This document shows, in pieces, positions 46,469-64,000 of a stretch of 64,000 nucleotides of DNA. How positions within the stretch are numbered: position 1 is the first letter of the stretch; each line of letters begins with the position of its first letter. The DNA is from Desulfosudis oleivorans Hxd3 (GTDB taxonomy: Bacteria; Desulfobacterota; Desulfobacteria; Desulfobacterales; Desulfosudaceae). The stretch spans positions 2,855,001 through 2,919,000 of the forward strand of contig NC_009943.1 of the NCBI RefSeq assembly GCF_000018405.1. Reading direction: 5' to 3'. The notes under the pieces were generated by a model, which was given only the letters and a program-made list of their open reading frames with translations, ran no database searches and was not told the origin of the DNA. Made by a program: the position numbers and the translations under genes.

Positions 46469-46476
46469 AAGAAAAA

Positions 46477-47300: not shown

Positions 47301-47319
47301 GCCAAAACAACGGGACGCA

Positions 47320-49266
47320 ATGATCAGGCGGTTCATCTTATCCAGGTGGATACAGGCGGGAATACTGGCGGGAATGGTGTTGGTGGCCTATCTTCCATCC
47401 ACCGACCACTCCTTTATCTGGGACGACGACTATTATATCACTCACAACATGACCCTTGCGGGCTTTTCCGGGTTGAAACGCATATGGCTTGAGCCCGGCG
47501 CCACGCCGCAATACTATCCTCTGGTCTTTACCAGTTTCTGGCTCGAGTATCATCTGTTCGGTCTTAACCCGGCAGTGTTTCATTTCACCAACATCCTTCT
47601 GCACGCCGCAAACGCCGTGCTGGTATGGCTGATCCTGGCCCGACTGCGCCTGCCCTGGGCATGGCCGGCCGCTGCCCTGTTTGCGCTTCACCCGGTCAAC
47701 GTGGAGTCCGTGGCATGGATCAGCGAACGCAAGAATGTACTTTCCGGAATGTTTGTTCTGCTCTCCCTGCTGTTTTTAATCCGCGCATCTCTTTCCGGAA
47801 CCGGCGGGAACCAGTACCCCGAAACGGCTTCAACAAACAGGCGGCTCTCCTACATGACCTCCTTTTTGTTTTTTATACCGGCCCTGTTAAGCAAAACCGT
47901 CACCTGCATGATGCCGGCAGCGTTCCTGATGCTGGTATGGTGGAAAAACCCTCAGGGGGGGGGCAGAAAAGCAGTGGCAACGCTTCCCTTTTTCCTTGTC
48001 GGGGCCGCGGCCGCGCTGCACACCGTCATCATGGAAAAAAGCCACGTAGGGGCCTACGGGATGGAATGGGCTTTCAGCACAATCGACCGTGTGCTGATCG
48101 CCGGGCGGGCCCTCTGGTTTTACGCATACAAACTGGTCTGGCCGGCAAACCTGGTGTTCATCTATCCCCGGTGGGACATCAACGCCACTGTATGGTGGCA
48201 GTATCTGTTTCCCGTCGGCGCGCTTGGGGCCTTTATTCTACTCTGGGTGACAAGAGGCCGGCTGGGCAGGGGGGCTTTGACCGGTGTGGCGATTTTTGCG
48301 ACAGCGCTTTTTCCCGCCCTGGGATTTATCAATTACTATCCCATGCGATATTCCTTTGTGGCGGACCATTTTCAGTACATGGCCGGCATCGCCCTGATCG
48401 CCCTGATAACGGCTGCGGCCCATCGCCTGTTTCATGGCATCCATCGATTTCCCGCTAAAACAGCCTGCATTCTGTTTTCCGTCCTGTTGTTGCTGCTTGG
48501 CACGCGTACCTTGCAGGAACAGAATAAATATGAGAACCTCCATACTCTGTGGCGGGATACGCTGCGAAAGGACCCCTTGTGCTGGATGGCCCACAACAAC
48601 GTCGGGGCACTGCTGTCTAAAATCGGCAATTATGAAAAGGCGATTGCCCACTTCAACAAATCGCTCAGCATTTATCCGACAAACGTAATGGCCCATTTAA
48701 ACATCAAGGGTGTGTCTAAAAAACTGACCGGTCAAACAACAGGGCCGCTGCTTTACGCTGGCGAACCCGGACGGCCCCGACTGATGGCATGGGATAACCG
48801 GCTGGCGACTGTCATGACACGATTGGGATGGGATAAAGCGGCGAACCATTATTATCAAAAAGTCATGGCCGTGGATCCCCGGAATGCCGAGGCCCACTAC
48901 GGAACAGGCCAACTGCTGGAGCGACAGGGAAAAATCGACGCTGCGATTACCGCCTATGAAACAACGCTGGATATCGACCCCCTGTACACGGACGTTTACC
49001 AAAGACTGGGAAAAATCCATCTGACGCGCAACGAATACGAGAAAGCGATAGACCGGTTTTTCATGCTGTTAAAAATCGATCCGTTCCGGGCAGAGGCATT
49101 TGAGCAACTGGGGCTCTCCTATTATCACACAGGCGACTTAGAAAACGCAATCAGAGCCTACCGACTGGCCCTCAATATTCAACCCCATAACCGGGCTCTC
49201 CAAATGACGCTTTCGCGAATACTGACACAGCCTGAACCGGTGGAGTCCCTGCCACCACGGCCATGA
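47320..49266 (+). CDS. TMTC-like GT-C membrane protein with TPRs
   Basis: The 648-residue protein has about ten membrane helices (10-400) with the acid pair FIWDDDYYITHN in the first loop and the family motif FALHPVNVESVAWISERKNV. A C-terminal TPR domain follows at about 410-640 (GNYEKAIAHFNKSLSIYPTN, GKIDAAITAYETTLDIDPLY, NEYEKAIDRFFMLLKIDPFR). It resembles eukaryotic TMTC O-mannosyltransferases and their bacterial counterparts. ATG 47320 is used; in-frame ATG 47269 and TTG 47248 are alternatives. Its stop overlaps the next start (ATGA). Confidence 0.85.
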   Translation: MIRRFILSRWIQAGILAGMVLVAYLPSTDHSFIWDDDYYITHNMTLAGFSGLKRIWLEPGATPQYYPLVFTSFWLEYHLFGLNPAVFHFTNILLHAANAVLVWLILARLRLPWAWPAAALFALHPVNVESVAWISERKNVLSGMFVLLSLLFLIRASLSGTGGNQYPETASTNRRLSYMTSFLFFIPALLSKTVTCMMPAAFLMLVWWKNPQGGGRKAVATLPFFLVGAAAALHTVIMEKSHVGAYGMEWAFSTIDRVLIAGRALWFYAYKLVWPANLVFIYPRWDINATVWWQYLFPVGALGAFILLWVTRGRLGRGALTGVAIFATALFPALGFINYYPMRYSFVADHFQYMAGIALIALITAAAHRLFHGIHRFPAKTACILFSVLLLLLGTRTLQEQNKYENLHTLWRDTLRKDPLCWMAHNNVGALLSKIGNYEKAIAHFNKSLSIYPTNVMAHLNIKGVSKKLTGQTTGPLLYAGEPGRPRLMAWDNRLATVMTRLGWDKAANHYYQKVMAVDPRNAEAHYGTGQLLERQGKIDAAITAYETTLDIDPLYTDVYQRLGKIHLTRNEYEKAIDRFFMLLKIDPFRAEAFEQLGLSYYHTGDLENAIRAYRLALNIQPHNRALQMTLSRILTQPEPVESLPPRP

Positions 49267-50792
49267 CACGAACGCACTACCTACAAGCATACAGCCCCCC
49301 GGTAATGACCGTTGTCGTTCTGTTGCTCTGCGCGGGCGCCGGCCTTCGCATCGCCGCCGCCAGCGACTGTTTGTGGTTTGATGAGATATGGTCATATATG
49401 CTGAGTCGGCATATGACTCAACCATGGCAGGCGCTGACGGTCGTCAATGTAGTGGACAACAACCATCCTTTGAACACCTTCTTTATGTACATGATGGGTG
49501 ATCCTTATGACTGGAGATGGTTCCGCGTACCGTCCCTCATCACCGGCACGCTCCTGTTGATTCTCATATGGCGGGCGGCAGACCGGTTCAGTCCATCCGC
49601 GGGAATGCCGGCGCTTTTCATGGCGACGGTTTCCCACCCTTTTATTCTCTATTCTTCAGAGGCGCGGGGATACGCGCCGGCCCTGTTTTTTTTGGTATCC
49701 GCGTTTTTCTTTATTCAGCAGTACTGGCAGGAGCGCGGCATACGACCGCTTGTGTTGTTTTGGTTCACCATCACGATGGGTCTGTTGGCCAACCTTACCG
49801 TGGCGTTCATCTGGCTGGCCATCTTCCTGTGGTCGGTTATGCACGAACTGCGCGCGTCCTCGTCCTTCCGAACCTTCATGGCCCACATCCTGAAATGCCA
49901 TCTGGTGCCGCTGCTGCCGATGGCTTACCTGTCGCATGCCTACCTTGTCAGAAATATGGCGGTCGGCAACATCGGCAGTCGATCGACTGAATTTATCACG
50001 GATTTTCTGGCTACCGTGGTGGCAGCCCTCATGGGCACCCCGTCCACAGGGGGATGGTTTGTTGCCGGCCTCTTTCTTTTTATTTGTGTTTTTCTCTACG
50101 GATGGTGTTCTTTATACAGAACAAACGCGGCGGTTGCGATTTTCTTGCTGCTGGCCGTCTGCCTGCCCCCTCTTTTGGGAAACCTCGGCCGGCAACTGAT
50201 GTATTTCCGTTTTTCCCTGGTCGCGTTTCCGTTCACTTATATCGTCCTGGCCATCGGAATCGCCGCCTGTTATAAGGGGAATCGCTTGGCCAAAACACTC
50301 TGCCTGCTTTTTGTACTTTTCTTTTCTTACGGCAATATCACCCGCACCCACGCCTTGATCACCATTGGGAGAGGGGATTACCTGGGTGCCATGTTCTATA
50401 TGGCGGCGCAACCCCACACAGGCCCGAGAGCGACTGCCCCACGCGATGACGACCGAACTATTCTTGTCGGCAGCGATAATGATTTTCGCAACCTGCCGAT
50501 CTTATACTTCTATGCCAGATACCTTCCTCAAAACACCAAAATGATCTATATCGGAGAAGGACAATGGCCCACCGAAGGTACGGACTGGCTGATCCGTCAT
50601 TCCCAGCAGCTGAACCGGGAAATAGCCGCACTGTACCGGCCCAATGACAGGCACGTCTACCGGCTGGAAAAAATATTCCCTTATGCCGGCGTTTCGGGCT
50701 GGAACTGGTACCTGTACAAAAGGGTGCCGCCGGACACGACATCCGCGGACCGGCGAAAAAATGTCACAGGGAGTGAAACATCCCCGCCATGA
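49263..50792 (+). CDS. GT39/PMT-like membrane glycosyltransferase
   Basis: The 509-residue protein has about ten membrane helices. The first loop carries CLWFDEIWSYMLSRHM, with the D-E pair typical of protein mannosyltransferase and ArnT-like enzymes, and SSEARGYAPALFFL follows. The C-terminal 90 residues are soluble and outward-facing. It overlaps the TMTC-like gene before it and the GT2 gene after it by four bases each (ATGA), so the three are one translationally coupled set. Confidence 0.82.
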   Translation: MTRTHYLQAYSPPVMTVVVLLLCAGAGLRIAAASDCLWFDEIWSYMLSRHMTQPWQALTVVNVVDNNHPLNTFFMYMMGDPYDWRWFRVPSLITGTLLLILIWRAADRFSPSAGMPALFMATVSHPFILYSSEARGYAPALFFLVSAFFFIQQYWQERGIRPLVLFWFTITMGLLANLTVAFIWLAIFLWSVMHELRASSSFRTFMAHILKCHLVPLLPMAYLSHAYLVRNMAVGNIGSRSTEFITDFLATVVAALMGTPSTGGWFVAGLFLFICVFLYGWCSLYRTNAAVAIFLLLAVCLPPLLGNLGRQLMYFRFSLVAFPFTYIVLAIGIAACYKGNRLAKTLCLLFVLFFSYGNITRTHALITIGRGDYLGAMFYMAAQPHTGPRATAPRDDDRTILVGSDNDFRNLPILYFYARYLPQNTKMIYIGEGQWPTEGTDWLIRHSQQLNREIAALYRPNDRHVYRLEKIFPYAGVSGWNWYLYKRVPPDTTSADRRKNVTGSETSPP

Positions 50793-51478
50793 AAAGACTG
50801 GTCATCATTCCTTGTTACAATGAAGAAAAAACCGTTGGCGCTATTGCCGAGGCGGCCAGGCCCCACGCCGACCTGTGCTTTGTTAATGACGCCAGCACGG
50901 ACCAGACCGGCGACCGTCTGCATGCCATTTCCGGCATTCACATCATCACCCACGCCAGGCGCACCCACATTCCCGGCGCCATTCTCGACGGCATGCGGTT
51001 TGCCGCGGACAACGGCTACGACGTTGCCGTGACCATGGACGCGGGGCTCTCCCACGACCCGAAGGACCTGCCCCGGTTTTTTGAGCATGACGGGTACGAC
51101 CTTGTCATCGGGGCAAGACGGAAAACCATTGGAACTCCGGCCCACCGGAAACTGATTTCCCAATGCGCGGCCCGCATCGTCAACTACGGTCTTTCAGATA
51201 CCTGGCATGATCTGAAAGGACCGGCCTTTTCAGACTGCACGTCCGGGTTCAGAATGTATTCAAAAAAAGCGCTGCAAACGGTTCTGAATGCTTCCCTTGC
51301 ATCAAGATCCTTCGGATTCCACATGGAGACCCTTGCTGTAATATACACCCACGGACTTTCTATTCAGGAAATCCCCGTCACCTACACGTTTACCAACAGC
51401 TCCTTCAATTCGGCGGCTGTGGGGGACGGCCTGCGTGTGGGAATCGGTCTTATCCGAAAAAAAATCGACAACGGATAG
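50789..51478 (+). CDS. GT2-family glycosyltransferase (DPM1-like)
   Basis: The 229-residue soluble protein begins KRLVIIPCYNEEKTVGAIAE and has CFVNDASTDQTGDRL and VAVTMDAGLSHDPKDLPRFF, the donor and DxD-type motifs of polyprenyl-phosphate-sugar synthases. The acceptor-side segment reads FSDCTSGFRMYSKKAL. It probably makes a lipid-linked sugar used by the membrane GT-C enzyme in the same operon; that link is inference. It lacks a membrane anchor. Confidence 0.88.
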   Translation: MKRLVIIPCYNEEKTVGAIAEAARPHADLCFVNDASTDQTGDRLHAISGIHIITHARRTHIPGAILDGMRFAADNGYDVAVTMDAGLSHDPKDLPRFFEHDGYDLVIGARRKTIGTPAHRKLISQCAARIVNYGLSDTWHDLKGPAFSDCTSGFRMYSKKALQTVLNASLASRSFGFHMETLAVIYTHGLSIQEIPVTYTFTNSSFNSAAVGDGLRVGIGLIRKKIDNG

Positions 51479-51499
51479 CAGCGCCGGTTCGCCCCTGCC

Positions 51500-51557
51500 T
51501 GTTCATTTTCCGCGCCTTGCGTCCTTTGCCCGACTCACCGCGTAAAATATTCAGGTT
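51500..51557. repeat. Degenerate right end of the 275-bp element
   Basis: The segment keeps TTCATT, CCGCGCCTTGC, GACTCA and AAATATTCAGGTTA in the same order and spacing as the right end of the 275-bp element. It fills the gap between the GT2 and TMTC-like genes and contributes the last bases of the TMTC-like gene. It looks like an old, truncated copy. Confidence 0.45.
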
Positions 51558-53307
51558 ATTCGCCGGACGATTCCATGACACGAAGCCGTGCCAGGTTTTT
51601 TCTGGCGGTCTGATATTCCGGGTCGATGGCAAGCGCTTTTTCCAGGTGCTGAATGGCTTCCGGTATCCGCCCGCTTTGCGCCAGGGTCGTGGCTAAATTA
51701 TTATAAAATTCCGGTTGCCCGGGGTCTGCCGCCAGGGCCGCCCTGTAGTGATCAATGGCCTCGTCGATTTGTCCCGTATCGGCCAGCAGATTGGCCAGGT
51801 TGTTATGGGCCAGGGCAAAATCCGGATTCAGGGCCAGTGCCCGGTGATAGGCGGCCAGCGCGGCCGACACGGCCCCTTTTCGCGCATGGGCAAGACCCAG
51901 GCAATGGTAAAGGCGGGGGTCCGCCGGTGAATGCGCAAGGGCCTTTTGATAATAAACAATCGCCTGGTCCGTCGCTCCCCTTCCCAGCATAATGTTCCCC
52001 AGGTCGGTATAAACATCTTCCGCCGGGCGGTGGCCGCTTTTGAGAAGACTTTCATAAAGGGTGGCGGTGTTTTTCCAGATTGCGGTCTGCCGCCATGAAA
52101 GTGTCATAGACCCCAGAACAAGAACGAGTAAAGTCGCCACAAAAAAAGATAAAAGGTGTCGGTTATGTTTAAAGATGTCATGCCCGCCCCACACCAGAAT
52201 GACAAGTATGCCGATTCCCGGTAGATAGGTATATCGGTGGATCAGCGAATGCCGAAACAGGCCGCTCAGAACGACCGGCAGCGCCATGGTAAGAAGAAAC
52301 CAGAGCAAGCCGATAATCATGTAAGGCCGCCTGCGGCCGGTATAGAATACCAAGCCCGTTATCAGAAAAAATAAAACCGCTGCGCCCGCGATTTCCCATG
52401 CCCCCGGTGGCACATAGTCAAGCCCGCTGAAAACAGACAGATTAAAAGGAAAAAGAATCTTCAACAAATAAACGAGATAAGATAACGGAACGCCGGCCAA
52501 GACATCCGTGAAAAGAGGAAGAATCGAGTCTTTTGGAATCATACCGCGGACAGGTGTTTTGATGTACAGATACGTCGCCAGGCCAGCTCCCGCCAGTGCG
52601 ACAAGAAACAGAGGCGTTTTTTCCTTCAGCAAAGCGGTAACAGACAGGCCCGCATGCTCTGGAAGAGCACACGGATTATATGCAGGGGCTGTCCCGCGCC
52701 ACCGGCCAAGCGGCCAGTAGTCCATCAGCAGTAGAACAAAAGGCAGATAAATGACTTCGGGTTTTGCCAAGAGACCGGCCACATAAAACAGGAGAACCAG
52801 GGCATACCCGGCCTTCGTCGGCCTTTTCGCATACCGGAAATAACACAAAAGGGTCAGGATAAAAAAGAAGCCGCTCAAAAGGGTGACACGGCAGGGCAGC
52901 CATACCACCGGTTCCACGTTCAGGGGATGAACGGCGAAAAGCGCCGCCAGGCCGGCGCTTTTCCATGTATCGCCGGTGGCGAACCGAAACGCGTAAAAAA
53001 GAAACAACGTATTGATGATGTGGATAAAAACGTTGACCATGTGGTGCAGGCCAAAGGCTTGGCCGAAAAGCACAAGGTCCAGCATGTGAGACAACATGAC
53101 CAGCGGCACCCGGTACGGGAAACAGGAAGGCCCGCCCGTGAACGCGGCCGAGATATCAAACCCATGGGCCGTATGGACGTCCGCGTAAGACATGACCGTG
53201 TAGTCGTCATCCCTTACAAGCTCGAAGTTTCGGACCTGTGCGTATACAACAAGCACGGCCATCGCCAGCAGCAGGCTGATAAAAATTTCCCTACCATGCT
53301 TCTTCAT
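51556..53307 (-). CDS. TMTC-like GT-C membrane protein with TPRs
   Basis: The 583-residue protein has the first-loop acids ELVRDDDYTVMSYADVH, the motif FAVHPLNVEPVVWLPCRVTL, about ten membrane helices, and TPRs at about 420-580 (GATDQAIVYYQKALAHSPAD, GAVSAALAAYHRALALNPDF, GQIDEAIDHYRAALAADPGQ). It is the last of three leftward TMTC-like genes. ATG 53307 is used; TTG 53337 with GGAGGAG upstream and a TTGA overlap with the previous stop is a credible alternative. Confidence 0.85.
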   Translation of the reverse strand: MKKHGREIFISLLLAMAVLVVYAQVRNFELVRDDDYTVMSYADVHTAHGFDISAAFTGGPSCFPYRVPLVMLSHMLDLVLFGQAFGLHHMVNVFIHIINTLFLFYAFRFATGDTWKSAGLAALFAVHPLNVEPVVWLPCRVTLLSGFFFILTLLCYFRYAKRPTKAGYALVLLFYVAGLLAKPEVIYLPFVLLLMDYWPLGRWRGTAPAYNPCALPEHAGLSVTALLKEKTPLFLVALAGAGLATYLYIKTPVRGMIPKDSILPLFTDVLAGVPLSYLVYLLKILFPFNLSVFSGLDYVPPGAWEIAGAAVLFFLITGLVFYTGRRRPYMIIGLLWFLLTMALPVVLSGLFRHSLIHRYTYLPGIGILVILVWGGHDIFKHNRHLLSFFVATLLVLVLGSMTLSWRQTAIWKNTATLYESLLKSGHRPAEDVYTDLGNIMLGRGATDQAIVYYQKALAHSPADPRLYHCLGLAHARKGAVSAALAAYHRALALNPDFALAHNNLANLLADTGQIDEAIDHYRAALAADPGQPEFYNNLATTLAQSGRIPEAIQHLEKALAIDPEYQTARKNLARLRVMESSGE

Positions 53308-53333
53308 GACCACGTCCGTCCGGCTGGGTTTCG

Positions 53334-55103
53334 TCAACGATCGCCATCTCCTCCGATAGCTGCGGCGCCCTGCTGCTGCATCATCAGAAGTCTGACGAGG
53401 TTTTCTCTTGCGGTGGCATAGTCCGGTTGAATGGCCAGGGCCTGACGCAGGTGAAACACCGCTTTGTCAAACTCTCCTTTGCGCGCAAAAGCCGTGGCGA
53501 TGTTATTGTGCGCTTTGTACAAAAAGGGGTTGTCCGGGGTCAGTGTCTTTTCAAAACAGGCAATGGCCTCGTCTGTTCGTCCCATTTCAACCAGCAGGTT
53601 GCCCAGGTTGTTACCGGCCATCGGGTGGCCGGGATCATATTTCAGGGCCTGCCGGAAACCGGCGGCGGCCCGCTGGCGGTCCCCCGCTTTCAAAAACGCC
53701 GCGCCGAGATTGTTGTGGACCAGCGCGTTTTCGGGATCCATGGAAAGCGCCTGCCGGTAAAAGGCGATGGCTTCATCAATACGGCCTTTTTCCAGAAGCG
53801 TGTCGGCAAGGTTGGTGACAGCCTGAATGTTGCCGGGGTGCAGGGCCGCCGCGTGTCGATAAAGAGTCTCACTGTCCCGGAAATGCCGTACATGGGCGTG
53901 GGAGACAAGTGCCAGAGCGATAATGGCGGGGGCAGTCACGCAAAGAACCGCGGGACGAAACCGCCGGAACCGTTGCGCCAGGTCGGCGACGATCCAGCCG
54001 GCCATGATAAAAAGCCCGATGGCGGGCAGATAGGTATGCCGGTCCGCCAGCACACGGCCCGACCCGGCCATCATGACCGCAACCGGCGCAAGGCAAAAAA
54101 CAAACCAGAACCACCCCGTCAGCAGATAGGGCCGGGACCGGCGGGCCCGAATCACGACCACCGTGACGACTGCCAGGATGATGACTCCGGCGACCGCGGG
54201 CCACAACGATTCTGATCCCGGAGGCGCCGGCCGAATAAGGGTCAGGTCAACAGGCCAGAAGAGCCTTCCAATGGCGGTCAGATAAGACGAGGCCGTCTTC
54301 AGGAACCATTCACCGGGCCCGGGAAGAGGCGGGCGGGATCCGGCTTCGGCACCCAGAAGCCGGCCTGTCAGCAAGGCACAGCCCACCGTTGCCAGAAAGG
54401 GAATTTTCTCCAGCACCAGGCGCCGCGCCGGCACGCCACCGGTGCCGGCGCGGCCCAGGGGCCAGAAGTCGAGCAGGCAGAACACCGCGATCAGCGGTGC
54501 TATCTCGGATTTTGACGCCAGGGCCAGGACAAACATCAGCAATACTGTCGCATACCGTCGCCAGGAAGGGCCATGGGCGTAATACAGGTAGGCGGCCACG
54601 GCCAGCAGGCCGAAAAAAACAGCCAGAACGCTGTTCCGGGTCGCCAGCCATGCCACGGGCTCCACGTTCAGCGGGTGAATGGAAAACAGCATCGCCGCGA
54701 TACCGGCCGGAAACGACCGGCCGGTGGTCAGGGACAGAGCAAGAAACAGCGTGATGCCGCTGAGAACATGAAACAGCAGGCTGGTCAGGTGGTGGTGCCC
54801 GAAGTTGTCCCCGAAAAGTTGAAAGTCCGCCATGTGGGAAAGGATCACCACAGGCACCCAGTAAGGCATATTGTCCGGAACGTCCGTGAACGCCCAGACA
54901 ATGGAGGAAAAAGAGAGTCCCTGCTGAATATGCCTGTTTTCGGTGACAATCGGATCATCGTAAGATACGGCGTCATGATGCCGTATCTGCAGAAATACAG
55001 CCAGGGAAAGCGCCGCCAGCAGCAGACAGACGCCCGCGTGAGTACCCAGGGACCGCGTTCTCTTGACCGGTTTGTTCGGCAATACAGCCTCTCTGGTTTC
55101 CAT
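53334..55103 (-). CDS. TMTC-like GT-C membrane protein with TPRs
   Basis: The 589-residue protein has a basic N-terminus, first-loop motif HDAVSYDDPIVTENRHIQQG, FSIHPLNVEPVAWLATRNSV, about ten membrane helices, and TPRs from about 425 on (GRIDEAIAFYRQALSMDPEN, GDRQRAAAGFRQALKYDPGH, GRTDEAIACFEKTLTPDNPF, GEFDKAVFHLRQALAIQPDY). The neighbouring leftward genes are homologous but diverged, unlike the near-identical rightward trio. It starts 129 bases after the preceding TMTC-like stop. Confidence 0.86.
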   Translation of the reverse strand: METREAVLPNKPVKRTRSLGTHAGVCLLLAALSLAVFLQIRHHDAVSYDDPIVTENRHIQQGLSFSSIVWAFTDVPDNMPYWVPVVILSHMADFQLFGDNFGHHHLTSLLFHVLSGITLFLALSLTTGRSFPAGIAAMLFSIHPLNVEPVAWLATRNSVLAVFFGLLAVAAYLYYAHGPSWRRYATVLLMFVLALASKSEIAPLIAVFCLLDFWPLGRAGTGGVPARRLVLEKIPFLATVGCALLTGRLLGAEAGSRPPLPGPGEWFLKTASSYLTAIGRLFWPVDLTLIRPAPPGSESLWPAVAGVIILAVVTVVVIRARRSRPYLLTGWFWFVFCLAPVAVMMAGSGRVLADRHTYLPAIGLFIMAGWIVADLAQRFRRFRPAVLCVTAPAIIALALVSHAHVRHFRDSETLYRHAAALHPGNIQAVTNLADTLLEKGRIDEAIAFYRQALSMDPENALVHNNLGAAFLKAGDRQRAAAGFRQALKYDPGHPMAGNNLGNLLVEMGRTDEAIACFEKTLTPDNPFLYKAHNNIATAFARKGEFDKAVFHLRQALAIQPDYATARENLVRLLMMQQQGAAAIGGDGDR

Positions 55104-55232: not shown

Positions 55233-57287
55233 TTAACGGTCGCCACGGCCCGCCATGAGATTCTTATAATATTCAGTGTCCCGGATGTTCTCAAGGTCGA
55301 CATCCCGTTCCAGCAGGGGCCACAGGTCAAACCCGCTGCTGAGGGCCCTCTCCAGCCACATTATCGCCGCCGTCCTGTCGTTCTGAACGGCATAAAGGCA
55401 GGCGATGTTGTACGCGATGCTGGCCGCGCTGTCCGGCCGCTCGGCCAGCAGCCGTTCCAAAAGGCCGGCAGCTTCGGCATACTTTTCCTGTGTCCGGTAC
55501 AACGCCACAAGGTTGTTGGCCGCGTCCAGGAACCCGGGGGTCAGTGCCATGGCGCTGCGAAAATGATCCTCGGCCCTGCCGGTCTCCCCCCGGGAAGAGA
55601 GCAGCAGGCCCAGGTTGTTGTGAGCCGCTGCCAGGCCGGGATTCAGGGACAGGGCCTCCAGGAAATGGCTTTCAGCCACGTCTATTTTCTTGCGGTGGGC
55701 ATAGATGACCCCCATGTCGTTATGGGTGTCGGCCAGCAGCCCGGCCGGCGCGGTTTCCCGGTCCTTCAAAATACGGATATAATGGTTCAGCGCGTTTTCA
55801 AAATCATTCTTATTAAAAAAAACATTGGCCAGGGCATATCGCGCGTCAAAAAAATCGGGTTTCACCTCCAGTGCCCGGGAAAAATAAGGCACCGCCCGGT
55901 CCGTATCTCCCCCCTTGATCAGCAGCAGGCCCATGTTGTAGTTGGCCTGGGGAAGATAGGGATTGATACGCAAGGCCTCGGTGATCTGCTCATGGGCGCA
56001 GGCATAGTTTTTCCTTTCAAAACAGACTTTTCCCAGGTTGTTGTGAATCAGGTCGTTATTTTCGGTCACGGCAAGGGTATGCTCAAAAAGCGTGGTACTG
56101 TTTTTCCAGTGCCCGGTTTGCCGGAACGACATTACACCCAAAACCGCCACGGCGGACGCTGCCAGGCCCCACACCACAAATCGCCGGCCTGGCCGGGCCG
56201 CCGCATAACCGGCCAGGTGCCAGGCAATGGCCACAAACAGGCCGATTAAGGGAATGTAGGCATAACGGTCGGCCATGGCGTGCTGGCCCACCTTTACCAG
56301 GCCGATGACCGGCACCAGGGTCACAAGGTACCAGACCCAGCCCACAATCAGATGGGGCGCCCTGGTCCGTGCCCGCCAGGAGACGGTCGTGATCAGAACC
56401 AGAAGGGTGGCTGATCCGGCCCACTGCCACAGGGGGATTGCCTTGGGAAAGGGGTAAAACACGGCCAGGGAAACCGGCCAGAGCATCTTTCCGATATACA
56501 GCACGTAAGAGACCAGCGCGTTTTGAATCCGCAGAAAAACCGGCAGTTCCGCCAGGGAGGTTATGGCGCCGGTCTGCTGCTGGACGGAAACCGTGATCCC
56601 CAGAAACACCAGGCTGATGGCCAGCAGCGGCATCTTTTCTTTAACAAGGTCCCAGACCCGCCCCTTTGACAACCGGCCCAGGGGCCAGAAATCCAGCAGC
56701 AGCAGAATAACCGGCAGGGAGATTAGCATGGGCTTGGCCATCATGCCCAGAACCAGCAGGACCGTCACCACCAGGTATCGTCCCACAGACGGTGATCGGG
56801 CATATTGTGTATAGGCGCCCATGGCCAGTATCCAGAAAAGCGTGGACAGCAAACCCTTGCGGCATGCAATATAGGAAACCGTTTCTGTGTTCAGGGGATG
56901 AACGGCAAACAGGGCTGCCACCGCCAGGGCCGATCCCAGGGAACCGGTCATGCGCCACAGAACGAGAAACAGCAGGAGTGTGTTGACCAGATGTAAAAAC
57001 AGGTTGGTATAATGGTGGCCGGCCGGATCGTTGCCGTAAAAATGAACATCCGCCATGTGAGAAATCCAGGTGAGCGGGAACCACATGCCCTCCCGGGTGG
57101 TAAAGGACTGTTTCAGGCCATCCAGTGTCAGGCCATTCTGAACATGGGGGGCCTCCACAAAAAAACTGTCGTCAAATTCTATAAACGCGTGACTGCCGAT
57201 GTCATGGTAAACCCCCAGGGTCAGGGCGGCAAGCACTGCCATGGCAAGCGCCGCGGGCCACAACCGTTTTTGGTGGATGGTCTTCAT
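55233..57287 (-). CDS. TMTC-like GT-C membrane protein with TPRs
   Basis: The 684-residue protein has the first-loop motif HAFIEFDDSFFVEAPHVQNG, FAVHPLNTETVSYIACRKGL, about ten membrane helices, and many TPRs from about 400 (GRAEDHFRSAMALTPGFLDA among them). Its end, YNIACLYAVQNDRTAA then DLENIRDTEYYKNL, matches the tail of the rightward tandem copies, so the tail module is shared across the family. ATG 57287 begins 10 bases after the radical SAM stop and is preferred to TTG 57293. Confidence 0.87.
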   Translation of the reverse strand: MKTIHQKRLWPAALAMAVLAALTLGVYHDIGSHAFIEFDDSFFVEAPHVQNGLTLDGLKQSFTTREGMWFPLTWISHMADVHFYGNDPAGHHYTNLFLHLVNTLLLFLVLWRMTGSLGSALAVAALFAVHPLNTETVSYIACRKGLLSTLFWILAMGAYTQYARSPSVGRYLVVTVLLVLGMMAKPMLISLPVILLLLDFWPLGRLSKGRVWDLVKEKMPLLAISLVFLGITVSVQQQTGAITSLAELPVFLRIQNALVSYVLYIGKMLWPVSLAVFYPFPKAIPLWQWAGSATLLVLITTVSWRARTRAPHLIVGWVWYLVTLVPVIGLVKVGQHAMADRYAYIPLIGLFVAIAWHLAGYAAARPGRRFVVWGLAASAVAVLGVMSFRQTGHWKNSTTLFEHTLAVTENNDLIHNNLGKVCFERKNYACAHEQITEALRINPYLPQANYNMGLLLIKGGDTDRAVPYFSRALEVKPDFFDARYALANVFFNKNDFENALNHYIRILKDRETAPAGLLADTHNDMGVIYAHRKKIDVAESHFLEALSLNPGLAAAHNNLGLLLSSRGETGRAEDHFRSAMALTPGFLDAANNLVALYRTQEKYAEAAGLLERLLAERPDSAASIAYNIACLYAVQNDRTAAIMWLERALSSGFDLWPLLERDVDLENIRDTEYYKNLMAGRGDR

Positions 57288-57297
57288 CGCCAAACGC

Positions 57298-58707
57298 TTA
57301 TACCCTTCTCAGTTTGATCAGCAGTTTGCGCAGCCAGGCCCCGCCTACAACGGAACGGATGGTGGTGGCCAGCCGGGACGGATGCAAATAAAAATAGGCA
57401 TTGGCCGCCTTTTTGTACACAAAAAGGCGGGCGTTGCTGATCTGGTCGTCGCTCATCCGGGGCCGCCGGACCTGGTAGTAATTGTACAGCCGGAATCGGG
57501 ACGGCAGGCGCCATCCCTGTTTTATCACGTGATCATGAAGGGCCGATCCCGGAAACGGGGTGGTCACGGAAAGCACCATCTCGTCCAGGCTGGAGGTGGC
57601 GGCAAACCGAATGGTATCCCAGACCTCGGCGGCGGTTTCGGTGGGCGCGCCCACCATGATAAACCCGGTGACCTGAATTCCCAGCTTTTCGGCGGCGGCA
57701 AGGGTGTCAGTTATCTGCAGGCGGGTGATCTGTTTATTATAAAGGCCGTTGCGAATGCGGTCCGTGATCGACTCGATGCCCACCTTGAGCTTGACCAGGC
57801 CGGCCCGCTTCATTCGGGCCATCATGTCGGCATCAATGGTGTCAACCCGCGTGTTGCACCCCCAGGGCAGGTCAAGTCTCCGGCTCTCCAGCAGGGCGCA
57901 GAACTCCCGAATCCAGTCCGGCAATACCGTAAGAAGATCGTCGGACAGATAAAAACATTCGATGCGATAGGCGCCTTTCAGGTATGCAAGATCCGCCACA
58001 ACGGATTGCGGGGAACGGATTCGTACTTTTCTGCCCAGTGTCCTGTGAACCGTCGGCTGGCAGAATGTGCAGTTGAAGGGGCACCCCCGCGAAACGGTCA
58101 GCGAGACCCCGCGCAGGGCCGGGTCATGGGAATCCATCTGAATGAAGATACGAATGTAGCGCTCCATGTCAAACAGGTCAAAGGCGGGCCGGGGAAGGGC
58201 GTCAATCTCCTCAATAAAGCCCCGTTCCGGGGTTTTATAAAGCGTGCCGTCCGCCTGCCTGAACCAAAGCCCCTTGACCGCCGCAAAATTCCGGTTTCCG
58301 TAAAACGCTTCGATATACTCCCGGAAGGTCTCTTCCCCTTCGCCGACGCACACCGCGTCAAACACGGCTTCCTTCAGAACGGCCTCCGGCGCCATGGTGG
58401 CGTGGGGCCCGCCGGCAATCACGGCAGCCCCGTGTTTTTTGGCGATGGCAGCGACTTTTGCCGCGTCTTCAGCCATCAGCACATCCACAAAAACGCCCAC
58501 GATATCAGGCCGATGCTTTTGAAGATATCGTTCCACAAAGGCAAAGGACGGGGAAAAGGTGGTATCCAGGATCGAAACAGACATATCCGGCACCCGTTCC
58601 CGGATATAGGCCGCCAGCGTAGCCAGGCCAATGGGAATATCCCCTGACTTGTAACGGAACCTGGGAAACACAAGCACAACGTGTCGGGAGTGGCGATGAA
58701 TGCTCAT
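57298..58707 (-). CDS. B12-binding-domain radical SAM protein
   Basis: The 469-residue protein has a cobalamin-binding-like N-terminal domain (PIGLATLAAYIRERV, PDIVGVFVDVLMAEDAAKVA, AAVIAGGPHATMAPE) and the radical SAM cluster motif TVSRGCPFNCTFCQPTVHR. It resembles the protein at 43358-44773 but is not a close copy. It leads the leftward operon of three TMTC-like genes, so it may modify their lipid or sugar substrate; that is inference. ATG 58707 is used; GTG 58737 is an alternative. Confidence 0.88.
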   Translation of the reverse strand: MSIHRHSRHVVLVFPRFRYKSGDIPIGLATLAAYIRERVPDMSVSILDTTFSPSFAFVERYLQKHRPDIVGVFVDVLMAEDAAKVAAIAKKHGAAVIAGGPHATMAPEAVLKEAVFDAVCVGEGEETFREYIEAFYGNRNFAAVKGLWFRQADGTLYKTPERGFIEEIDALPRPAFDLFDMERYIRIFIQMDSHDPALRGVSLTVSRGCPFNCTFCQPTVHRTLGRKVRIRSPQSVVADLAYLKGAYRIECFYLSDDLLTVLPDWIREFCALLESRRLDLPWGCNTRVDTIDADMMARMKRAGLVKLKVGIESITDRIRNGLYNKQITRLQITDTLAAAEKLGIQVTGFIMVGAPTETAAEVWDTIRFAATSSLDEMVLSVTTPFPGSALHDHVIKQGWRLPSRFRLYNYYQVRRPRMSDDQISNARLFVYKKAANAYFYLHPSRLATTIRSVVGGAWLRKLLIKLRRV

Positions 58708-58739
58708 TTGCCTGCCTGGTCTGAATTTGATGGACACTC

Positions 58740-58769
58740 ACTATACCAGAAGGGCCGGGCAAACTTCAA
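58740..58769 (-). promoter_or_regulatory. Promoter of the leftward radical SAM/TMTC operon
   Basis: Reverse-strand TTGAAG (58769-58764), an 18-base spacer and TATAGT (58745-58740); the -10 box matches five of six. The start would be about 25 bases before the ATG at 58707. Confidence 0.55.
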
Positions 58770-58802
58770 ACTTATTCCGGCAGGACAAAAGCCGTTTGCC
58801 GG

Positions 58803-58831
58803 TTGTCAAAAAAAATGGAATCTGATATAGC
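58803..58831 (+). promoter_or_regulatory. Promoter of the rightward tandem TMTC array
   Basis: TTGTCA (58803-58808), a 17-base spacer and TATAGC (58826-58831) lie about 55 bases before the ATG at 58887. It is back to back with the leftward promoter 34 bases away. Confidence 0.55.
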
Positions 58832-58886
58832 CCTTTGGAACATGATTACAGCAGGTTCTACTCACACCACATCCGGAGTAAAGCCC

Positions 58887-61175
58887 ATGACCGATACCCA
58901 TCCCTCCCTGCCGCCGAGGCCCTGGTGGCCATTACTCCTTCTTGTCATCATCGCGGCTGCCGCCATTCTGACCTATGCCAACTCTCTGACCGCGCCTTTC
59001 GTGTTTGATGATGCCCATAACATCGTTGAGAATCCTCATGTTCGCATGGCCGAGCTTTCCCTCGACGGCATCATCGACGCGGTCACTGTCGGAACCCGGC
59101 GGCCGGTGGCCAGCCTCACCTTTGCACTCAACTACTACTTTCACGGTTATGACATAACCGGCTACCATCTGGTCAACATCGCCATCCACATTCTGACAGG
59201 CTTTCTGATGTTCCTGGTGGTCCGCCACACACTGGGCCTGATGAACCTTGAAAGACGGGACATGGTTGCCGGGCTTGCAGCCCTTGTGTGGACCGTCCAC
59301 CCGCTTCATACCCAGTCGGTGACCTATGTCGTCCAGCGCATGGCCGCCCTGGCCACCCTCTTTTTTCTTTTCGCCCTCTACCTTTATATAAGGGGCCGGC
59401 TCCGGCAAAGGGAAGGCCGCCCCCTTGGCTCCCTGTTCTTTGTTCTCTGTGGCCTGTCCGGCATTCTGGCCGTGCTCTCCAAGCAGATCGCCGCCACCCT
59501 GCCCTTTTTTATCCTGGTCTACGAATGGTATTTTTTCCAAGACCTGGACAGGGCGTGGATTAAAAAACAGGCAAAATGGATCGGCAGCGCAGTGGTTGTC
59601 ATTGGCGCGCTTGCGGCAATATACCTGGGCGCCTCCCCGATAGAAAAAATCATGGCCATGTATAAAACCCAGGACTTTACCCTGGGCCAACGGCTTTTAA
59701 CCGAGCCCCGGGTGATTTTTCTTTATCTTTCCCTGATTCTTTTCCCCTATCCCGGGCGGCTCAACCTGGATTATGACTTTCCCGTGTCTGTCTCGCTGAT
59801 CGATCCGGTTACCACCCTGGTCTCCATACTGGGTTTGATCGGCCTGGTCGCGGCCGCTGTTGTCACGGCAAAAAGATACCGGCTGGTCTCCTTTGCCGTT
59901 GTCTGGTTTCTGGGTAACCTGGCCATTGAGTCCTCCTTTTTAGGCCTTGCCCTGGTGTTTGAACACCGCACCTACCTGCCCTCTGTCCTTGTAATCGCGG
60001 CCCTGGCCTGGGCCGCCATTACATATATTCGGCCCCGGCCCCTGGCCATTGGTTTTCTCTGCGCCGTAACCCTCCTCTGGGGATTCTGGACATACCAGCG
60101 TAACGCCATCTGGGCCGACGAAGTAGCCCTGTGGCGGGATGTGACAGAAAAATCCCCCACCCTGGCCCGGCCCTGGAGCAACCTGGGAATGGCCCTGCAG
60201 ATAGCGGGAAACAGCGAGGCGGCGCTTCAGGCCTTTCAAAAGGCTATTGCCCTTGATCCGAATCACATGGAGGCCCACAACAACAGCGGTTTTATATTAA
60301 GGGAGCTGGGCCGTCCCAAAGAGGCCATAAAGTTCTTCCGCAGGGCACTGGAGATCAACCCGGCCTATGCCGACGCCCACTACAATCTCGGCCTGGCCTT
60401 TTTTGACTTAAAAGACATGGCCCAGGCCCGCACGGCTTTTGAGCAGACCCTTCGGGTCAATCCGCTCTACAGCAAGGCCCACAACAACCTGGGGGTCATC
60501 CTGATGCAGGAAGGTGATCACGAGGCTGCTGTCGCCGCCTATCAGCGGGCACTTAAAACCGACCCCCGTTTTGCCCAGGCCTACAACAACCTGGGCATTA
60601 TCGCCTATCAGCAGGGCAACCCGGATCAGGCGGCCTCGTTCTTTAAAAAAGCCCTGACCGCGGATCCGGCCTATGCCGGCGCGGCCAACAACCTGGCCCG
60701 GGTGCGGCAAACCATTGAAAAACACGGCCCCGCCATCACGGAGCTTAAACAGATGTTGCACAAGACCCCCAACGACGTGGATCTCTCCTGTCGCCTGGCC
60801 CAGGTTTACCAGGCTGCCGGCATGCGGTACGGAGCCATCTCACAATACCAAAAGGCCCTGGCTCTGCAACCCGGCCATGGACCAAGTCTCAACGCCCTTG
60901 GCGTCCTGTACGCCGCCATGGGCCAGCCGGCAAAGGCTGTTGAGTGTTTTCGAAAGCTGTCGGCCCTGATGCCGGGCAATGCCACGATCTATTACAACCT
61001 GGCCTGCCTGTACGCCCGGCAGAACCAGGTGGAACCGGCTGTTGAAAACCTGAAAAAAGCCCTTGACGCCGGGTATGACAACCGGGAACAGATCCGCGCC
61101 GACAAGGACCTTGCGCCCATTCGCGACACCGAATTTTACAAAACCCGTATCGATTCACAGGAGCCGGGCAAATGA
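58887..61175 (+). CDS. TMTC-like GT-C/TPR protein, tandem copy 1
   Basis: The 762-residue protein has the first-loop motif LTAPFVFDDAHNIVENPHVR, then TRRPVASLTFALNYYFHGYD and VWTVHPLHTQSVTYVVQRMA, about ten membrane helices to residue 425, and roughly eight TPRs (for example GRPKEAIKFFRRALEINPAY, GDHEAAVAAYQRALKTDPRF). The end is YNLACLYARQNQVEPAVENL then LAPIRDTEFYKTRI. GGAG lies nine bases before ATG 58887; the longer frame from TTG 58803 would overlap the promoter. Its stop overlaps the next start (ATGA). Confidence 0.88.
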   Translation: MTDTHPSLPPRPWWPLLLLVIIAAAAILTYANSLTAPFVFDDAHNIVENPHVRMAELSLDGIIDAVTVGTRRPVASLTFALNYYFHGYDITGYHLVNIAIHILTGFLMFLVVRHTLGLMNLERRDMVAGLAALVWTVHPLHTQSVTYVVQRMAALATLFFLFALYLYIRGRLRQREGRPLGSLFFVLCGLSGILAVLSKQIAATLPFFILVYEWYFFQDLDRAWIKKQAKWIGSAVVVIGALAAIYLGASPIEKIMAMYKTQDFTLGQRLLTEPRVIFLYLSLILFPYPGRLNLDYDFPVSVSLIDPVTTLVSILGLIGLVAAAVVTAKRYRLVSFAVVWFLGNLAIESSFLGLALVFEHRTYLPSVLVIAALAWAAITYIRPRPLAIGFLCAVTLLWGFWTYQRNAIWADEVALWRDVTEKSPTLARPWSNLGMALQIAGNSEAALQAFQKAIALDPNHMEAHNNSGFILRELGRPKEAIKFFRRALEINPAYADAHYNLGLAFFDLKDMAQARTAFEQTLRVNPLYSKAHNNLGVILMQEGDHEAAVAAYQRALKTDPRFAQAYNNLGIIAYQQGNPDQAASFFKKALTADPAYAGAANNLARVRQTIEKHGPAITELKQMLHKTPNDVDLSCRLAQVYQAAGMRYGAISQYQKALALQPGHGPSLNALGVLYAAMGQPAKAVECFRKLSALMPGNATIYYNLACLYARQNQVEPAVENLKKALDAGYDNREQIRADKDLAPIRDTEFYKTRIDSQEPGK

Positions 61176-63655
61176 ACCTGTCTTTTCTTCGTCACCGCTG
61201 GCAGGCCGGCGCCGTGCTGATTCTATTGGCCGCAACAGCCGTTCTGATCTATTCCAACACACTGACCGCGCCGTTCACCTTTGACGACGGCCACAACATT
61301 CTGGATAACCTGAATATCCGCATGACCGGGCTTTCCATCGACAGCCTTATCGACGCGGCCACCGTCCAGACCCGGCGGCCTGTTGCCAGCCTCACCTTTG
61401 CGCTCAACTACTATTTTCACGGTTATGACGTGACCGGGTATCACGTGGTCAACATCGCCATCCACATTCTTGCCGGCTTTCTGATGTTCCTGGTGGTCCG
61501 CCACACACTGGGCCTTACGGGCAATGAAAAAAAAGAGCTGATCGCTGCCCTGGCAGCCCTGGTCTGGCTCGTCAACCCGGTCCATACCCAGTCAGTGACG
61601 TATATCGTCCAGCGCATGACCGCCCTGGCCACCCTCTTTTTTCTTTTCGCCCTCTACCTTTATATAAAGGGCCGGCTCCGGCAGCGGACCGGCCGCCCCC
61701 TTGGCATTCTCTTTTTTGCCCTCTGCGGCCTGTCCGGCATCCTGGCTGTGCTTTCCAAGCAGATCGCCGCCACCCTGCCCTTTTTTGTTCTGGTCTATGA
61801 GTGGTATTTTTTCCAGGACCTGGATCGGGCATGGATTAAACAACAGGCAAAGTGGATCGGTGGAGCCGTGTTTATCATTGGCGCGCTTGCGGCAATATAC
61901 CTGGGCGCCTCCCCGATAGAAAAAATCATGGCCATGTACGACTCCCAGGACTTTACCATGGGCCAGCGGCTTTTAACCGAGCCCAGAGTAATATTTTTAT
62001 ACCTTTCGCTGCTCTTTTTTCCGTACCCGGCCCGGCTCAATCTGGACTATGACTTTCCCGTGTCTGTCTCCCTGATCGACCCGTTCACCACCCTGGTCTC
62101 CATCCTCGGCCTGATCGCACTGCTGGGGGCCGCTGTTGTCACGGCAAAAAGACAGCGGCTGGTCTCCTTTGCCATTGTCTGGTTTTGCGGCAATCTGGTA
62201 ATCGAGTCCTCTTTTATCGGTCTGGCCCTGGTGTTCGAGCACCGCACCTACCTGCCCTCTGTGTTTGTAGTCGCGGCCCTGGTCTGGGCCGCCATTACAT
62301 ATATTCGGCACAGGCCCCTGGTCATTGGGTTTCTCTGCGCCGTCACAATGATCTTCGGCTGCTGGACATTTCAGAGAAACACCATCTGGGCCGATGATAC
62401 GGCCCTGTGGCGGGACGTGACAGAAAAATCCCCCAACCTGGCCCGGCCCTGGAACAACCTGGGCCTGGCCCTGAAAAACCAGGGTCAGACGGACCAGGCC
62501 ATGGCCATGTACAACAGAGCAATCGAAATCGATCCCGGCTACATCCACCCTTACAACAACCTGGGTGCCCTGTTTCTGGAAACCGGCCAACCGGAAAAGG
62601 CCAGGCCCCTTCTTGAAAAGGCCATTGAGACAGACCCCCTCTTTATGATGGCATACAGCAACCTGGCCATTGCCTGCCACCGGCTCGGCGACAGTGAAGC
62701 AGCCATGGCATGGTGTGAGAAGGGATTACAAATAAGCCCGAATGACCTGGAAATACAAAACACGCTGGGCGTTATTCTGCTGGCCCAAAGACGGGAGCAG
62801 GAGGCCGCCGTCCTGTTTGAAGCAGTGCTGCAGAAAGACCCGGGCCACACCGAGGCGCTGATGAACCTGGCCCTGATTGCCGACAAACAGGGAGACCGGG
62901 AAAAAACCGCCGCCCTTCTTGAAAAAGCGATCCGCCTGGACCCGGCGTCGGCCGAAGCCCGGTATCATCTGGGCGAACTGCTGGCCCGCACCGGCAATCC
63001 CGACAACGCCATGGCCCAGCTTGAGCAGGCCCTGCACCTGAAACCGGACCATGCCCTGGCCCATAACGCCATGGGAAATTTATGGCTTCAGGCCGGAAAA
63101 ACAGACAGGGCCATCGACCACTACCAAAAGGCCATCGCCATTGACCCCGGATTTGCCGCGGCCCACACCAACCTGGCCGATGCCCTGGTTCGAACCGGAA
63201 AGATCGACAGCGCCCTGCATTACCTTGAAACCGTGGCCGCCTCCCGTCCGGACGATGCCGGCCTGCTGCTTAAAACCGGCATCCTGCACCAGCAGAACGG
63301 AAACCTCCCGGCTGCCGAGAACCTTTACCAAAAAGCCCTGAGCATAGACCCCGGCTGCACCGCCTGCCTGAACCGGCTGGGCATGATTCACGCCCAAGCC
63401 GGACGGCTCGATAAGGCTGCCGGCTGTTTTGAAGAACTGGCCCTGCTGGTGCCGGACAATCCCGTGATCCATTACAACCTGGCCTGCCTCTACGCCCGGC
63501 AGAACGAGGTGGAGCCAGCCCTGACAAATCTAAAAAAAGCCCTGGATACCGGGTATGACAACCTGGAACAAATCCGCACCGACAGAGATCTGGACAATAT
63601 CCGCGACACCGGCTTTTACAAAGACCTGGTGCGAGTGAAGGAGCAGGGGCAATGA
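61172..63655 (+). CDS. TMTC-like GT-C/TPR protein, tandem copy 2
   Basis: The 827-residue protein is a close paralogue of copy 1. The membrane half is nearly residue-for-residue alike (LTAPFTFDDGHNILDNLNIR, TRRPVASLTFALNYYFHGYD, VYEWYFFQDLDRAWIKQQAK). The TPR half is longer by about 65 residues and differs in sequence (GQTDQAMAMYNRAIEIDPGY, GDREKTAALLEKAIRLDPAS), while the last 55 residues are alike again (YNLACLYARQNEVEPALTNL, LDNIRDTGFYKDL). It begins and ends with ATGA overlaps. Confidence 0.88.
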   Translation: MNLSFLRHRWQAGAVLILLAATAVLIYSNTLTAPFTFDDGHNILDNLNIRMTGLSIDSLIDAATVQTRRPVASLTFALNYYFHGYDVTGYHVVNIAIHILAGFLMFLVVRHTLGLTGNEKKELIAALAALVWLVNPVHTQSVTYIVQRMTALATLFFLFALYLYIKGRLRQRTGRPLGILFFALCGLSGILAVLSKQIAATLPFFVLVYEWYFFQDLDRAWIKQQAKWIGGAVFIIGALAAIYLGASPIEKIMAMYDSQDFTMGQRLLTEPRVIFLYLSLLFFPYPARLNLDYDFPVSVSLIDPFTTLVSILGLIALLGAAVVTAKRQRLVSFAIVWFCGNLVIESSFIGLALVFEHRTYLPSVFVVAALVWAAITYIRHRPLVIGFLCAVTMIFGCWTFQRNTIWADDTALWRDVTEKSPNLARPWNNLGLALKNQGQTDQAMAMYNRAIEIDPGYIHPYNNLGALFLETGQPEKARPLLEKAIETDPLFMMAYSNLAIACHRLGDSEAAMAWCEKGLQISPNDLEIQNTLGVILLAQRREQEAAVLFEAVLQKDPGHTEALMNLALIADKQGDREKTAALLEKAIRLDPASAEARYHLGELLARTGNPDNAMAQLEQALHLKPDHALAHNAMGNLWLQAGKTDRAIDHYQKAIAIDPGFAAAHTNLADALVRTGKIDSALHYLETVAASRPDDAGLLLKTGILHQQNGNLPAAENLYQKALSIDPGCTACLNRLGMIHAQAGRLDKAAGCFEELALLVPDNPVIHYNLACLYARQNEVEPALTNLKKALDTGYDNLEQIRTDRDLDNIRDTGFYKDLVRVKEQGQ

Positions 63656-64000
63656 GATCCCCGGCCACATCCGCCGGCTTCTGGCAGGCCGGGGCCACGC
63701 TGCTCCTTCTTGCCGCAGCAGGCGTAGTCCTTTACTCAAACTCCCTGACGGCCCCGTTTGTATTTGACGATCTTCCCAACATTTTTGAAAACCCCCACAT
63801 CCGTATAACCCGTCTGTCCTTCCCCGATCTTGCCGACGCGGCCACCGTCGGAACCCGGCGGCCGGTGGCCAGCCTCACCTTTGCGCTGAACTATTATGTT
63901 CACGGCTATAACGTGGCCGGATACCACGTGGTCAACATCGCCATTCACATTCTGACAGGTTTTCTGATGTTTCTGGTGGTGCGTCAGACACTGGGCCTTA
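63652..64000 (+). CDS. TMTC-like GT-C/TPR protein, tandem copy 3 (runs off the right edge)
   Basis: The frame opens with ATG 63652 in an ATGA overlap with copy 2 and stays open to the edge (116 codons). It contains LTAPFVFDDLPNIFENPHIR, TRRPVASLTFALNYYVHGYN, VAGYHVVNIAIHILTGFLMF and VVRQTLGL. DNA identity to copies 1 and 2 over this stretch is very high. The array therefore continues beyond the window. Confidence 0.9.
   Translation, partial: MRSPATSAGFWQAGATLLLLAAAGVVLYSNSLTAPFVFDDLPNIFENPHIRITRLSFPDLADAATVGTRRPVASLTFALNYYVHGYNVAGYHVVNIAIHILTGFLMFLVVRQTLGL

Follow-up and report, generated by a model that had tools for sequence, protein, structure and literature searches.

What a bacterium does with a cluster of seven genes for membrane proteins that end in tetratricopeptide repeats (TPRs), and why such genes should be gathered in one place, are the questions raised by a stretch of the Desulfosudis oleivorans Hxd3 chromosome. 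The window, that is, the whole stretch of 64,000 nucleotides analysed here, is C1:2855001-2919000 of a single-contig genome of 3,944,167 bases (G000, hereafter the own genome), and coordinates refer to the window unless they carry a locus number (L). The open reading frame (ORF) list and a Pfam scan place seven membrane/TPR genes, labelled T1-T7, within 18 kb, from 47248 to beyond the window end; six are complete in the window, and each protein consists of a membrane half, some 420 residues long, and a TPR half. The TPRs score well above Pfam cut-offs in the six complete genes, and those of T7, outside the window, were read from the sequence. An earlier note on this DNA had described seven ORFs with C-terminal TPRs, and all seven were seen, the last being completed in the adjoining genome. 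With slightly less than even confidence, we propose that these proteins are periplasm-facing lipid-phosphate-sugar transferases that modify fibre-type exported proteins, with the TPRs choosing the acceptor or partner. Gene layout, homology, motifs, mosaic divergence and recurrent neighbours carry this proposal, together with a predicted fold and topology, and from them we infer activity, donor, acceptors and the TPR role.

The cluster belongs to a larger family. Eight further GT-C/TPR genes lie elsewhere in the own genome (at about 1523k, 1525k, 1677k, 1730k, 1836k, 2993k, 2995k and 3168k), and the resulting total of 15 is a lower bound; the concentration that had drawn attention to this locus thus amounts to seven of at least 15 genes packed into 18 kb of a 3.94-Mb genome. 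Grouped by membrane half, subfamily A comprises T1, 1523k, 1525k and 1836k, subfamily B comprises T5-T7 and 1677k, and subfamily C comprises T2-T4 and 3168k, with 2993k, 2995k and 1730k placed there by best match. Identity of the membrane halves between subfamilies is 18-25% (12 genes compared); despite this low identity, profile comparison of the membrane halves (B-C 99.9%, A-C 100%) indicates that the three are clearly homologous. Among 96 sampled genomes of the order, the subfamily B model matches in 75 and a subfamily C protein finds matches in 71 (cross-matches between subfamilies counted), and the subfamily A model at E<=1e-40 matches in 12, some of these being cross-matches to C genes. 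A plasmid search with the T6 domain gave no match.

Pfam glycosyltransferase models did not match the membrane halves of T1-T7 (PF02366 and PF13231 gave none at E<=10). PMT_2 matched 2 of 74 subfamily B members, and 4 of 15 subfamily C members matched PMT_2 and one PMT; other Pfam matches among the 74 B domains were DUF6684 in eight and DUF6056 in six. Profiles of the subfamily B or C membrane domains likewise matched no solved structure by sequence, even at E<=10. The model of full-length T6 (pLDDT 94.1) displays the TPR superhelix, and a fold search with it was filled by TPR proteins (OGT, SPINDLY); because this search was uninformative for the membrane half, it was redone with that half alone. 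The AlphaFold model of T6 residues 1-420 (pLDDT 95.1, pTM 0.93) aligned in VIA-align with 55 of 1000 chains at Z>=8 and with none at Z 5-8, and every one of the 50 entries listed is, judging by its title, a GT-C enzyme or a complex containing one. The best matches were OST (7oci_F, Z 20.9, root-mean-square deviation 4.2, 307 aligned), Pmt4 (19.4), Pmt1-Pmt2 (19.2), ArnT (18.6) and PglB (17.7). Foldseek reached a best E-value of just 4.3e-3 with the same half, and its first 19 rows were GT-C chains. On these models a GT-C fold is well supported for the T6 membrane half, and subfamilies A and C are tied in by profile homology only.

Conserved motifs are present on this predicted fold. First-loop acid pairs, the lysine of external loop 3 (EL3) and the tyrosine of EL5 are retained in all seven cluster genes, and D38, D39, R148, K196, E345, H357, R358, Y360 and P362 are invariant in 74/74 aligned subfamily B sequences. 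Among the 15 own-genome proteins, the first-loop DD is found in 14 (1730k has EEEE) and the EL3 lysine in 13 (histidine in 1730k, valine in 2995k); the 1730k copy (L127:8103-9860), with both its EEEE acids and the histidine, may have an altered function. The earlier note had named loss of the catalytic acids as one of two results that would speak against its proposal; we found them retained, in a domain predicted to be GT-C. These residues also bear on a scaffold reading, in which a GT-C fold without catalysis would carry TPRs that order an export apparatus. The same fold (Z 13.8 to T6 1-420) occurs in PIG-U, a GPI transamidase component that we take to be non-catalytic, TPR proteins act in pilus assembly, and PilF and PilW were among the TPR matches of full-length T6; however, first-loop acids and lysine that are invariant or nearly so in the aligned sequences make a scaffold role very improbable.

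Which side of the membrane the two halves face is suggested by the T6 model, in which we count 11 helices that cross the membrane, ordered 1-6-4, and further helices lying flat on the periplasmic side. The earlier note had read a ten-helix GT-C-like domain with first-loop acid pairs; the acid pairs stand in all seven proteins, and the helices are better read as this predicted set of 11, a fit that requires helix 263-282 to be flat within loop 4. The 1-6-4, 11-helix layout has been described for TMTC and POMT in the accessible part of PMC6801728, and a flat helix in loop 4 before the TMTC DW motif in that of PMC7801869. Such a layout would place the TPRs in the periplasm. Loop charge in T6 agrees with this topology, lysine and arginine accounting for 10 of the 47 residues assigned by hand to predicted cytoplasmic loops and 12 of the 157 assigned to periplasmic ones.

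The relation between the two halves is most apparent in subfamily B. T5-T7 are 79-86% identical in the membrane half and 37-45% in the TPR part, and synonymous divergence (dS) is 0.37-0.48 in the membrane domain vs 1.10-1.41 in the TPRs, a TPR figure inflated by uncertain alignment of the repeat register; the last 60 or so residues are closer again (dS 0.71-0.78). The genome G070, from another genus of the same family, shows a similar contrast and carries an array of eleven subfamily B genes. Between two of these, g08 and g09, DNA identity is 100% over codons 36-305 (810 bp), then 90-98% as far as codon 365, 70% starting at 366 and 56% starting at 396; their TPR parts share 31% protein identity, and dS is 0.11 in the membrane half vs saturated in the TPRs. 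G070 is a draft assembly, so misassembly is a possible source of the identical block. As controls, three G070 pairs from a segmental duplication between contig 13 and contig 10 gave dS of 0.20-0.25 (membrane) and 0.19-0.21 (TPR); since these lack the contrast, the mosaic is not a general family property. Gene conversion of the membrane half, or TPR exchange near the junction, would explain it. In a tree of subfamily B domains, T5-T7 form one clade (support 1.00) within a larger clade with ten G070 contig-13 genes (0.99); several deeper nodes are weak, and gene conversion can exaggerate such clades. The eleven G070 genes themselves stand in runs of six, four and one on L108-L109 (contig 13) and L126 (contig 10), with sugar-nucleotide-type genes between them, and three have near copies on the second contig.

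The mosaic shows that the TPRs differ in sequence, but it does not show that their acceptors differ. A test for diversifying change on the concave face of the TPRs gave a negative result: changes among T5-T7 are spread over the repeats with no concave-face concentration (Fisher P 0.28-0.85). At the positions we take to be concave, identical residues number 13/32 for T5/T7, 15/41 for T5/T6 and 12/33 for T6/T7, and at other surface positions 34/106, 38/111 and 28/106, respectively (P 0.40, 0.85 and 0.28). This absence of focus would suit an array that is a by-product of gene duplication, in which membrane domains are converted, TPRs drift under weak constraint and the copies are largely redundant; so would the loss of the EL3 lysine in 1730k and 2995k, the EEEE of 1730k, and a copy number that differs widely from genome to genome. 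However, all seven cluster genes retain the acids, the lysine and the EL5 tyrosine, and in the G070 segmental duplicates TPR and membrane dS are equal with non-synonymous divergence (dN) well below dS, which indicates that the TPRs are under constraint. We consider this explanation unlikely.

Candidate acceptors come from recurrent neighbours. About 500 bp past T7, on the same strand, L001:11534-19698 encodes an exported protein that begins MKK...DADLDGISGQAGV, a relative of it, a C39 peptidase (62.9 bits), a barrel protein with SH3 and SPOR domains (21.7 bits vs the Phenol_MetA_deg cut-off of 22), a FadL-type protein and a WD40-like protein. After the signal, exported proteins of this VTGQ family carry the stretch LxDxxLxxVTGQxG, which to us resembles the double-glycine leader LSxxELxxIxGG, and some members carry a true GG; periplasmic trimming of VTGQ proteins by the C39 enzyme may be envisaged. 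Canonical C39 peptidases cut at the GG motif, and the substrate of the C39 homologue FapD is given as yet undetermined in the available text of PMC6173800.

Strong C39 loci (E 3e-60 or better) number 15 in 13 of the 96 genomes, and relatives of the barrel and FadL-type proteins accompany C39 in all 13 (in the own genome by construction). Four of the 15 lie on contigs shorter than 8 kb; among the 11 with enough flank, a GT-C/TPR gene lies no further than 10 kb away in five (G000, G070, G017 C79, G082 C136 and G067), or in four of ten without the own genome. The A3 profile, built on the exported N-terminus, found matches in 17 of 96 genomes; every one of the 13 genomes that have strong C39 loci is among them, G013 with a weak match. 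With G000 set aside, a GT-C/TPR gene stands no more than 5 kb from 6 of 31 VTGQ loci vs 0.35 expected, a figure tilted towards association by a profile partly seeded near GT-C genes and by an approximate expectation. At a second site in the own genome, two VTGQ-type proteins (L125:6194-7324 and 7269-8642) are followed by the 2993k and 2995k GT-C genes, 2993k starting 15 bp past the stop of the exported protein, and on G070 contig 10 two VTGQ-type proteins precede a subfamily C gene.

Seen from subfamily B, a VTGQ gene is present at 5 of 80 loci in named genomes (L042, L046, L072, L074 and L082, the last being the same locus as G067 C44), and a motif-found pilin gene lies directly upstream at five others (L028, L036, L047, L061 and L094). 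At L082, from Desulfatibacillum alkenivorans DSM 16219, two subfamily B genes are neighbours of VTGQ genes. The own-genome 1677k gene comes after genes for a secretin, a T2SSE ATPase, T2SSF and pilins, with a pilin directly upstream. Pilin-linked and VTGQ-linked genes are scattered over several separate places in the subfamily B tree. Two other neighbours were noted: a prolipoprotein diacylglyceryl transferase-like gene (PF01790, L017:12001-12828) that overlaps the end of a pilin-linked GT-C/TPR gene, and an exported protein (L020:2064-3152) whose CxxCH-type haem motifs were identified by eye and whose gene immediately precedes one of subfamily B.

These neighbours bear on another possibility, namely that the substrate of these GT-C transferases is lipid or polysaccharide, in the manner of ArnT and lipid A, and that the TPR part does no more than dock them to an envelope complex. 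ArnT is indeed among the fold matches, and the G070 array is interleaved with epimerase-, aminotransferase-, acyltransferase- and flippase-like genes, so named from sequence, and with a GT2 gene. We nevertheless find this rather unlikely: the recurrent direct neighbours of GT-C/TPR genes are exported proteins (pilins and VTGQ proteins), and the protein-modifying PMT and OST score about equal to or above ArnT.

Several findings weigh against protein modification by these transferases. No enzyme activity or glycan has been seen for any bacterial member in the material examined. Most of the 80 subfamily B loci have neither neighbour, many of their contigs being short, and 6 of the 11 C39 loci have no GT-C/TPR gene nearby (G009, G013, G017 C75, G020, G039 and G082 C122; in G009 and G039 the contig ends 5-7 kb to one side). 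To these may be added the tilt in the VTGQ count, the even spread of TPR changes and the GT-C fold of PIG-U.

Envelope glycosylation, as the earlier note proposed, is the most likely role, and the transferase model that we prefer would run as follows. A GT2 enzyme would charge polyprenyl phosphate with a sugar; the inner-membrane GT-C glycosyltransferase, with its first-loop acids and C-terminal TPR superhelix both predicted to be periplasmic, would pass that sugar to an exported protein; and choosing or holding the acceptor, or an export partner, would fall to the TPR part. Likely acceptors would be fibre-type exported proteins, that is, pilins at pilin-linked loci and VTGQxG proteins at C39/barrel cassettes, as for T5-T7. 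Tandem copies might keep a shared catalytic half via gene conversion while their TPRs diverge or are exchanged. A doubtful extension of this model is combinatorial glycosylation, in which a homogenised GT-C half would be combined, by junction recombination, with exchangeable TPR cassettes, each aimed at a different exported fibre subunit bearing a Sec signal followed by a double-glycine-like leader cut periplasmically by C39. Three such GT-C/TPR units stand ahead of the cassette in the own genome, and G070 counts eleven.

The layout of the cluster is given in Table 1. Successive genes overlap by 4 bp in T1/PMT_2/GT2, in T2/T3 and in T5/T6/T7, and strand and spacing divide the cluster into at least three groups, T1-PMT_2-GT2 (+), radical SAM-T4-T3-T2 (-) and T5-T6-T7 (+).

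Table 1. Genes of the GT-C/TPR cluster, in window coordinates (aa, amino acids)
Feature	Position	Strand	Evidence and remarks
T1, subfamily A GT-C/TPR	47248..49266	+	ORF of 672 aa from TTG; in-frame ATG at 47320 (start in the earlier note); TPR by Pfam; FIWDDDYY acids, K in LLSKTVT
PMT_2-type GT-C enzyme without TPR	49263..50792	+	PF13231 27.1 bits (cut-off 26.1); 4-bp overlap with T1
GT2, polyprenyl-phosphate-sugar-synthase-like	50789..51478	+	PF00535 64.1 bits; 4-bp overlap with PMT_2-type gene
T2, subfamily C GT-C/TPR	51556..53337	-	ORF; TPR by Pfam; identity grouping; acids
T3, subfamily C GT-C/TPR	53334..55103	-	4-bp overlap with T2; ORF; TPR by Pfam; identity grouping; acids
T4, subfamily C GT-C/TPR	55233..57293	-	ORF; TPR by Pfam; identity grouping; acids; C-B profile homology 99.9%
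B12-binding radical SAM protein	57298..58737	-	PF04055 77.8 bits, PF02310 61.6 bits; 4 bp upstream of T4, same strand
T5, subfamily B GT-C/TPR	58803..61175	+	In-frame ATG at 58887; ORF; TPR by Pfam; identities
T6, subfamily B GT-C/TPR	61172..63655	+	Full-length and 1-420 structure models; GT-C fold matches
T7, subfamily B GT-C/TPR	63652..64000 (cut by window end)	+	792 aa in adjoining genome, L001:8652-11030

The three interleaved partners that had been reported, a GT39-like enzyme, a GT2 synthase and a B12-radical SAM protein, were recovered by Pfam. For the GT2 gene, the best NCBIfam score was PpgS at 57.2 bits vs a cut-off of 370, and no equivalog cut-off was reached, so the likeness is one of family only; the radical SAM protein reached no NCBIfam model at its cut-off. 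The PMT_2 partner has relatives at E<=1e-10 in 2 of the 96 genomes, the own counted, and T1/PMT_2/GT2 was rejected on this ground as a conserved operon. Among the 11 best own-genome matches to the radical SAM protein (self counted), four have a GT-C/TPR gene within 2 kb (binomial P 3e-5) and five have one within 5 kb (8e-6), a proximity that is a lead only, because the test was picked after the layout had been seen and because these genes cluster. Four more such matches lie at C1:2932674-2945051 (L002), about 12-24 kb past T7, three of them consecutive on one strand. Just upstream of T1 are a second TPR-less PMT-type protein (44888-46648, PF02366 24.9 bits) and an isomerase-like gene (46477-47241, read by eye as FKBP) that overlaps it.

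The suggestion of a dedicated envelope glycosylation system with several acceptor specificities is supported in part. For T5-T7, one membrane domain joined to divergent TPR parts is what would be expected if there were several specificities. One dedicated and conserved system is not supported, given three subfamilies of about 20% identity, at least three gene groups, and the few genomes with a PMT_2 relative or a subfamily A match. The cluster brings three subfamilies together at one place, and within it a recurrent acceptor candidate lies next to the B genes alone.

TMTC-like proteins from bacteria had been described before, and the mosaic and the neighbour linkages appear to be new: among the literature matches listed, seen as titles and abstract openings with few subscription journals covered, we found neither TPR-tailed bacterial GT-C arrays nor a tie to pilins or C39 cassettes. 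The predicted GT-C fold and the retained acids make testable enzymes of widespread membrane/TPR proteins that Pfam glycosyltransferase models leave unmatched in most members scanned, and the recurrent neighbours point to specific proteins as candidate acceptors. The mosaic can serve as a natural experiment in how a possible acceptor-choosing domain is swapped on a glycosyltransferase.

Among known systems, ArnT and PglB are bacterial periplasm-facing GT-C enzymes with polyprenyl-linked donors, and their acceptors are lipid A and an asparagine sequon, respectively. Both match the T6 model in fold, and both differ in lacking TPRs. The PMT/POMT enzymes (GT39) share the predicted fold (Z up to 19.4) and the first-loop acids; in contrast, PF02366 and PF13231 do not match the seven window domains, and TPRs stand here where PMT has a MIR domain (accessible part of PMC7759382). 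On the export side, the cassette beyond T7 resembles Fap in its C39 peptidase, its putative outer-membrane barrel (just under the cut-off) and its exported subunits, and differs in the SH3 and SPOR domains of the barrel and in the added FadL-like and WD40-like genes. FapF is a trimeric barrel similar to COG4313 channels, and fapD/fapF pairs occur in five further phyla, according to the available text of PMC6173800.

A last comparison is with TMTC1-4 (GT105), the TPR-bearing protein O-mannosyltransferases of eukaryotes. Family membership, as the earlier note's likeness to TMTCs might imply, found no support in Pfam: DUF1736 (PF08409) matched none of the seven window domains at E<=10, and was absent at E<=1 from the families listed for 74 B members (25 of 28 families) and 15 C members. 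A search for DUF1736 across the own genome was likewise negative but carries no weight, having been equally negative in 14 control genomes. With DUF1736 unmatched in these domains, membership is not supported, and TMTC-like is the best name. Motifs M2, M4, M5 and M7 were taken from PMC7801869, the accessible part of which already states essentially full-length prokaryotic TMTC homologues, one from a deltaproteobacterium. Compared by description, the M3 aspartate is absent here and subfamilies A and C are further off at M2, M4 and M5; in subfamily B, however, RP occurs in the M2 stretch, SKE(Q)IAAT resembles KE(T/Q)xxT of M4, and EHRxYLP resembles ERxxY of M7. Like the TMTCs, the proteins described here combine a GT-C N-terminus bearing a first-loop DD with a TPR C-terminus. 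The mosaic of this bacterial family also bears on the function of the TPRs in TMTC enzymes.

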